Positions 21,897 through 23,690 of a DNA stretch of 64,000 bases are shown here, piece after piece. Origin of the DNA: Acidimicrobiia bacterium (GTDB taxonomy: Bacteria; Actinomycetota; Acidimicrobiia; Spongiisociales; UBA11373); contig CP129495.1 of the NCBI GenBank assembly GCA_030584185.1, positions 1,267,628 through 1,331,627 on the forward strand. The letters are read 5' to 3'. The notes under the pieces are model-generated. The model did not search any database. It was given only the letters and a program-made list of their open reading frames with translations, and was not told the DNA's origin. Made by a program: the position numbers and the translations under genes. The stretch's first letter is position 1, and the number at the start of each line of letters is the position of its first letter.

Positions 21897-22337
21897 TCAG
21901 TGGTAGAGCCTGACCAGGCTCTCCACAACGGCCGCGGGACGCTCCGCACCTTCGATCTCGATCGTGACCTGGTTTTTGAGCTGCACGCCCCCCTCGATGG
22001 GGGTCGCCTCGAGAAGCACGACCCTGCCCCTGATGCGCGAACCCACCCGCACCGGGGTGATGAACCGCACCTTGTCCAGCCCGTAGTTGACTGCCATCCG
22101 CGCTCCCTCCCCGAGGGAGCGCGTCACGTCGCGGGTGAGCGGGGTGAGCAGCGAGAGCGTCAGGAATCCATGGGCGATCGGCCCACCGAACGGCCCGGAT
22201 TCGGCCGCCTCGCCGGCCTGGTGGATCCACTGGTGATCATCCGTGACGTCGGCGAAGGCGTCGACGCGCTCCTGGGTCACCTCCAGCCAGTCGCCGACGC
22301 CGATCTCCTCACCGACACGCGATTCGAGGTCGTTCAT
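21897..22337 (-). CDS. MaoC family dehydratase
   Basis: 146 residues. A single hotdog domain with the hydratase motif DVTDDHQWIHQ (about 30-40) supplying Asp and His, then GPIAHGFLTLSLL. Such proteins hydrate enoyl-CoA esters. It is the second gene of a two-gene operon; its ATG overlaps the stop of the selenoprotein gene by 4 bases. The partnership with a SelW-like redox protein has no obvious metabolic reason and may only reflect shared expression. Confidence 0.9.
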   Translation of the reverse strand: MNDLESRVGEEIGVGDWLEVTQERVDAFADVTDDHQWIHQAGEAAESGPFGGPIAHGFLTLSLLTPLTRDVTRSLGEGARMAVNYGLDKVRFITPVRVGSRIRGRVVLLEATPIEGGVQLKNQVTIEIEGAERPAAVVESLVRLYH

Positions 22338-22567
22338 CCTCGCTCCCTCAACATCTCGAGGATGGCCTCGGGGGTGGTGTGCTCCCCGGTCTCCTTCTTC
22401 GAGTAGATCAGCTCACCGTCGACGGTCACCTCGAACACGCCTCCCCTGGAGGGAACCATGATCAGGTCGGTGATCTGTTGCTCGAACTCGCTGAGAAGGG
22501 CATCGACCATGCGCACGGCACGGTCCCGATAGCTTCAAGCGACGCAGTACTCAAGGGTGATTTGCAT
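22334..22567 (-). CDS. SelW-like (Rdx family) selenoprotein, TGA read as selenocysteine
   Basis: 77 residues including selenocysteine at position 11, encoded by the in-frame TGA at 22535-22537. The N-terminus reads EYCVA-Sec-SYRDRAV, a CxxU redox motif after the first beta strand exactly where SelW/Rdx proteins have CxxU or CxxC, and the rest (MVPSRGGVFEVTVDGELIYS, then KKETGEHTTPEAILEML) is the conserved thioredoxin-like body. A hairpin of bacterial SECIS type follows the TGA. ATG 22567 lies 6 bases after TACCAT (minus strand, 22574-22579). A standard gene finder would give only a headless 60-residue protein from GTG 22516. Requires SelA/B/C/D elsewhere in the genome. Confidence 0.9.
22505..22525 (-). 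promoter_or_regulatory. bacterial SECIS hairpin for the SelW-like gene
   Basis: On the minus strand GACCGTGC (22525-22518), loop CGTGC, GCATGGTC (22512-22505): eight pairs including one G-U. The loop begins 17 bases after the TGA, within the usual bacterial distance, and has G as second base followed by U. ATC and GAT just outside can extend the stem across a GG bulge. Read from the sequence by eye. Confidence 0.75.
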
Positions 22568-22649
22568 GAGGGAATGGTAACGGGGGGCTGCTCGCAACCG
22601 GGGCGCGACACCATGCTTCCTACAATCGCCCGGTCGATCCGGAGAAGGC

Positions 22650-23690
22650 ATGGAGTATCGGGAGTTCGGCGGGACCGGGATGCGGGTGAGCCGCTACGGG
22701 CTGGGCACGATGATGCTCGGGGCGTGGGGCAACCCCGATCACTCCGAATGCCACCGCATCGTGGCACGCGCCATCGACGCCGGGATCAACCTTGTCGACA
22801 CCGCCGACGTGTACGCCGGCGGCGAGAGTGAGGAGATCGTCGGCGAGGCGTTGCGGGGCCGTCGAGACCAGGTGATCCTCGCCACCAAGTTCCACAACCC
22901 GATGGGCCCCGGCCCCAACGAGCGGGGAAACTCCCGCCGCTGGATCGTGCAGGCTCTCGAGGCGAGCCTGCGTCGCCTGGGCACCGACTGGATCGACATC
23001 TACCAGGTGCACCGCTTCGATCCGTCGACCGCCATCGAGGAGACGGTCGAGGCCCTCTCCGACCAGGTGCGGGCCGGAAAGATCCGCTACTGGGGCACCT
23101 CGATGTTCCCTGCGGGGCAGATCGTCGAGGCGGCGTGGGCGGCCCAGCGCAACTCCGCCCTTCCACCCCGATCCGAGCAACCCCTCTACAACGTGTTCGC
23201 CAGAGGCATCGAAAGCGACGTCCTCCCCACCTGCCGCCGCCACGGCATCGGTGTCACCACCTGGAGCCCTCTCTCGGGAGGCTGGCTCACCGGGAAGTAC
23301 ACCCGCACCGATCCCGCACCCAAGGGCAGCCGGGCGGAGCGGTTCCCGCAGTACTTCGACGCCGCCAACGAGGTCAAGCTGGGAATGGTCGAACGGCTGT
23401 CGGCGGTCGCAGCCGACGCCGGCATCAGCCTCACCCACATGGCACTCGCCTGGTGCGGGGAGCACCCGGGGGTGAGTGCATCACTGCTCGGGCCGCGTAC
23501 CGAAACCCAGCTCGAAGATCTGCTCGGAGCCGCCGAGGTGACCCTGGATGCCGCCACCCTCGATCGGATCGACGAGATCAACCCGCCCGGGGTGCTGATC
23601 AACCCGCACGACCAGGACTGGTCGCCACCCGACCTGGAGCCCATCGCCCGCCGCCGGATCCCGGTTGCGGACACCGGCGTGGTTTCATGA
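22650..23690 (+). CDS. aldo/keto reductase
   Basis: 346 residues. Catalytic Asp and Tyr are in NLVDTADVYAGGESEE (about 49-64), Lys in VILATKFHNP, His in IYQVHRFDP; the NADPH-binding end has SASLLGPRTETQLEDLL. Resembles the YajO/IolS-like branch. Reduces an aldehyde or ketone with NADPH; substrate unknown. The ATG has GGAGAAGG nearby (22640-22647). Divergent from the selenoprotein operon. Confidence 0.92.
   Translation: MEYREFGGTGMRVSRYGLGTMMLGAWGNPDHSECHRIVARAIDAGINLVDTADVYAGGESEEIVGEALRGRRDQVILATKFHNPMGPGPNERGNSRRWIVQALEASLRRLGTDWIDIYQVHRFDPSTAIEETVEALSDQVRAGKIRYWGTSMFPAGQIVEAAWAAQRNSALPPRSEQPLYNVFARGIESDVLPTCRRHGIGVTTWSPLSGGWLTGKYTRTDPAPKGSRAERFPQYFDAANEVKLGMVERLSAVAADAGISLTHMALAWCGEHPGVSASLLGPRTETQLEDLLGAAEVTLDAATLDRIDEINPPGVLINPHDQDWSPPDLEPIARRRIPVADTGVVS

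Follow-up and report, generated by a model that had tools for sequence, protein, structure and literature searches.

A short minus-strand gene in the window, the whole 64,000-nucleotide stretch of Acidimicrobiia DNA analysed here, almost certainly (probability about 0.97) encodes a SelW-like selenoprotein in which UGA at codon 11 is decoded as selenocysteine, probably from a leaderless mRNA. The reading frame continues through the UGA into a conserved Rdx-family body, the UGA is retained in relatives, and a conserved hairpin follows it. The genome also encodes the machinery for selenocysteine (Sec) decoding. The features are collected in Table 1.

Table 1 Coordinates of selW, its signals, its neighbours and related genes of the same genome (positions in the window unless a locus or the genome is named).
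Feature	Position	Strand	Basis or remark
selW, predicted 77-aa Rdx-family selenoprotein (TGA stop included)	22334..22567	-	reading frame, Pfam Rdx, TIGR02174
In-frame TGA, codon 11, CxxU, predicted to be read as selenocysteine	22535..22537	-	TGA kept in the order and in other phyla
Bacterial SECIS hairpin, 8-bp stem, 5-base loop CGTGC, invariant G at loop position 2	22505..22525	-	folding, alignment of relatives
-10 element TACCAT (TANNNT), 6 bases before the ATG	22574..22579	-	same 6-8 base spacing in relatives
MaoC-like dehydratase gene, start overlaps selW stop (ATGA)	21897..22337	-	sequence, ORF list; overlap in L022, L026
Aldo/keto reductase gene	22650-23690	divergent	upstream of selW
selB	L010:7439-9247	-	336.6 bits, cut-off 242
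selA	L010:9238-10563	-	396 bits, cut-off 268
Thioredoxin-like lipoprotein-type gene, TGA in WUTTC (UxxC)	L103:601-1215, genome ~400500-401114	-	

An Rdx-family reading frame with a conserved in-frame TGA

The selW gene begins with an ATG at 22567-22565, and its first ten codons (MQITLEYCVA) lead directly to the in-frame TGA. Beyond this codon the frame continues as an Rdx-type body (SYRDRAVRMV...RERG) and ends at a second TGA at 22336-22334. The product matched the Pfam Rdx family (PF10262) far beyond chance (E 2.3e-21, 76.2 bits against a cut-off of 22.6, with Cys put in for Sec) and also TIGR02174 (67.5 bits, cut-off 34.2). Residues 7-11, YCVAU, supply the CxxU motif that follows the first strand. 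Homology in sequence to solved SelW/Rdx proteins, including SelW 2npb at E 6e-4, implies a thioredoxin-like fold for SelW. The original prediction had raised the possibility of Cys in place of Sec in Rdx proteins, and a Cys is indeed aligned with the Sec position of SelW in the distant CxxC homologues 3dex and 2fa8. Its coordinates for the gene and its placing of the TGA within a CxxU also held.

As had been predicted for conventional gene calling, the mechanical ORF list contained only a 60-aa stub at this locus (22516-22334, GTG start at 22516). If the TGA were a true stop, either this stub would be functional or the gene would be a decaying pseudogene. A GTG start is available for such a product, but the stub would be missing two elements of the Rdx fold, its first strand and its redox Cys. 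Conservation also argues against a true stop. Within the family, an Rdx match was found in 10 of 14 genomes, each with one TGA. Across the order, selW was detected in 76 of 138 genomes, and every match spanning the site held exactly one TGA; the one row without it came from a match cut short by the end of a contig. None of the order-level matches covering the site in these 138 genomes had TAA, TAG or Cys at codon 11, and the normal stop in close relatives that would have spoken against the prediction was not encountered. Conservation of the residues 5' of the TGA (IEYCxx) and of the TGA codon itself extends across the order and into other phyla, with TGA present in nearly all loci from Chloroflexota, Bacillota, Gemmatimonadota and Latescibacterota. 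Locus L042 reads TGA at the site, and the exception is L066, an Alphaproteobacterium with CxxC.

The frame 3' of the TGA is likewise under coding constraint. Over the 180 bases following the UGA, 60, 30 and 213 changes were counted at the three codon positions in turn among 12 close pairs, a third-position bias showing that this stretch evolves as coding sequence. With distant relatives, uncorrected pN/pS was uninformative, probably because of saturation, and these codon-position counts in close pairs were used instead.

Selenocysteine machinery and its co-occurrence with selW

The genome surveyed (2.21 Mb, one contig, 96% complete) contains selA, selB, selD and tRNA-Sec together with selW. 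Such a system had been implied by the original prediction, and its absence, named there as grounds for refutation, was not borne out. The selA and selB genes overlap by 10 bases (L010:7439-10563, minus strand). A tRNA-Sec with anticodon TCA was called by both ARAGORN and Infernal (Rfam). The selD gene (385 bits) has one TGA inside its own frame, located in the motif HGAGUACKLAP (GAGUACK; translation by eye). The tRNA-Sec and selD lie away from selA/selB, elsewhere in the genome (L011, L019).

The presence of selW follows that of the machinery. Of the 14 family genomes, 10 had both selW and selA and four had neither (Fisher p 0.001), and selB exceeded the cut-off in nine of the 10 genomes with selW and in none of the four without it; the selW-bearing exception, G010, is a genome of 76% completeness. 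At the order level, a selA match was missing from 5 of 76 genomes with selW vs 16 of 62 without selW (p 0.003). Those five genomes (G014, G073, G092, G098 and G100), four of them 69-84% complete and one 90%, count in favour of a true stop or a pseudogene. The loss of the gene together with the machinery counts against it, as do the conservation of IEYCxx with the exact TGA and the constraint on the downstream frame, and this explanation is considered very improbable. It is scarcely credible that the UGA is instead read by a near-cognate tRNA or through a general code change (Trp or Cys): the frame is open whatever residue TGA encodes, but TGA is the normal stop of selW itself and of its relatives, the UGA occupies the redox position at which distant homologues have Cys, and the genome carries tRNA-Sec (TCA anticodon) with SelA, SelB and SelD.

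Decoding of the UGA as selenocysteine is further supported by the thioredoxin-like gene listed in Table 1, a putative third selenoprotein gene of this genome beside those of SelD and SelW. Its TGA is retained in seven family relatives, and G001 and G012, both of which are without selA and selB, have TGC (Cys) in their best orthologues. This TGA/TGC swap is the classical Sec/Cys exchange and provides independent support for Sec decoding in the lineage. Searches for formate dehydrogenase and CMD/AhpD yielded no further in-frame TGA. Many genomes of the order have selA without selW, so the Sec trait would be kept for other selenoproteins as well. A little-studied actinobacterial order is predicted to gain a complete Sec-decoding trait with at least three selenoproteins (SelD, SelW and the thioredoxin-like protein). 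Within the family, SelW comes and goes with the machinery and never has Cys, whereas relatives devoid of the machinery have Cys in their thioredoxin-like protein. The contrast offers a natural test of which selenoproteins can dispense with selenium.

The SECIS hairpin, the start of the mRNA and the gene context

The hairpin downstream of the UGA, GACCGTGC-CGTGC-GCATGGTC at 22525-22505, was the top fold of the region. The original prediction was right about its position, its 8-bp stem and its 5-base loop, and the compensatory changes described below agree with it; however, the 17 bases given as its distance from the TGA lead to the start of the loop, and the stem itself begins 9 bases past the TGA. 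The single-sequence fold was no stronger than expected (z -0.75) and 17% of synonymous recodings gave an equal stem; single-sequence folding was therefore rejected as proof of a SECIS element. The hairpin is convincing only through conservation and covariation in relatives, not on its own.

The hairpin alignment comprised 36 sequences (35 distinct), nearly all from the order, which are related, and the counts from it do not represent independent events. In this alignment 91.1% of the stem cells were paired, vs 18.6-41.4% when the stem was slid by 1-3 bases. Changes on both sides occurred at three stem pairs, with double changes from U-A to C-G and from C-G to U-A, and the covariation score was reached by 0 of 500 shuffles. 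The U-A pair at columns 18-28 was C-G in exactly four sequences, those that use the alternative Arg codon (a 32 to 4 split with zero exceptions). The inner 6 bp, never broken among the aligned sequences, form the conserved core; of the two outer pairs, one is disrupted in 11 and the other in 14 of 35 sequences. Loop base 2 was G in all aligned sequences, in keeping with the G looked for at one of the first two loop positions of a bacterial SECIS.

In loci of other phyla (L035-L037, L050-L061), the SelW SECIS stem seems to be shifted downstream by a few bases relative to this order (CCGTC-5 nt-GACGG). Read from these loci, the stem positions suggest that the SECIS register drifted within the protein family while the protein was conserved. 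The alignment shows that this order has kept a hairpin different from the inner one of the other phyla, CCGTC-AGTAT-GACGG.

The TACCAT box that had been proposed 6 bases before the ATG is present. A TANNNT box 6-8 bases 5' of the selW ATG was found in 29 of 36 loci (L022-L031 and L071-L095 being among the loci compared), against a mean of 0.56 and a maximum of 5 in shuffles. The seven exceptions (L030, L031, L071, L074, L075, L084 and L093) carry a Shine-Dalgarno-like site, and in four of them the TANNNT has moved to 17-18 bases. AGGA was flagged in some of the 29 TANNNT loci, but solely within a TAGGAT box. For comparison within the window, a TANNNT 6-8 bases before a start candidate occurred in 8 of 35 gene models. 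A TANNNT box just 5' of the start codon is described as a signature of leaderless genes in Actinobacteria in two earlier reports (PMC3160421, PMC3898074). At the window's selW the box stands 6 bases before the start codon and there is no Shine-Dalgarno site. Given the -10 box just upstream of the ATG, the selW mRNA is probably leaderless.

In the proposed mechanism, RNA polymerase would start at the ATG or 1-2 bases off it, just downstream of the TACCAT box. The UGA would be decoded by tRNA-Sec(UCA) brought by SelB, SelB would be tethered by the hairpin beginning 9 bases 3' of the UGA, and SelA and SelD would provide the selenocysteine. The outcome would be a small redox protein of the thioredoxin fold, with Cys-x-x-Sec as its active site. 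For the order as a whole, we consider it quite likely that the mRNA for the selenoprotein has no leader, with UGA at codon 11 and the SelB-binding hairpin starting ~42 bases from the 5' end, and that in some genera it has been replaced by a leadered mRNA carrying a Shine-Dalgarno-like site. If this is true, recoding must work together with initiation on a leader-free mRNA, and the probable leaderless transcripts make SelB recoding so near the 5' end of an mRNA a testable question. Full-text literature searches, judged by titles and abstract openings, turned up no study that evidently dealt with leaderless selenoprotein genes in bacteria.

The overlapping MaoC-like dehydratase gene is probably co-translated with selW. 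The overlap is retained in L022 (as GTGA) and L026 (as ATGA), hence in a subset of the family's genera only, and in L027 a MaoC homologue, matching in two separate pieces, lies directly after selW. No coupling of MaoC to selW was seen in the remaining loci compared. The arrangement is thus a recent family-level coupling and no guide to function.

Comparison with known SelW systems

Knowledge of bacterial SelW-like selenoproteins dates from 2005, and they form an established family (PMC1088965, PMC1794560). SelW-like protein, with its CxxU and bacterial SECIS, ranked first in abundance among the selenoprotein families of the Sargasso Sea data (PMC1088965), and among Sec-using organisms Cys homologues of bacterial SelW are few or absent (PMC1794560). 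Epsilonproteobacterial SelW genes were wholly missed in annotation owing to the UGA (PMC4607533). A full-text search for selenocysteine together with Acidimicrobi* gave no paper.

Mammalian SelW and the Cys-type Rdx proteins (2npb, 3dex, 2fa8) are homologous to the window protein by sequence, and the solved bacterial ones carry CxxC. In eukaryotic SelW the SECIS is located in the 3' UTR. The SelW homologues of Chloroflexota and Latescibacterota differ from the window gene in stem register, as read from their loci. The Epsilonproteobacterial genes share with it the annotation failure and a 5-6 bp apical hairpin with an invariant G, but belong to another phylum (PMC4607533). Compared with bacterial SelW-like selenoproteins in general (PF10262 / TIGR02174), the window gene has the same size, family, N-terminal CxxU, hairpin directly after the UGA and G in the loop; it differs in its lineage (Acidimicrobiia) and in its probable leaderless mRNA. 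The lineage agrees with two loci from Acidimicrobiia and Actinomycetota MAGs, L032 and L033, whose sequences are identical over the compared stretch to the genes of family members G011 (L026) and G007 (L023), respectively, making class Acidimicrobiia the most likely origin of the window. Since both such selenoproteins and their omission from annotation were already known, the finding is true and ordinary in kind, and what is new about the window selW is the lineage and the probable leaderless arrangement.
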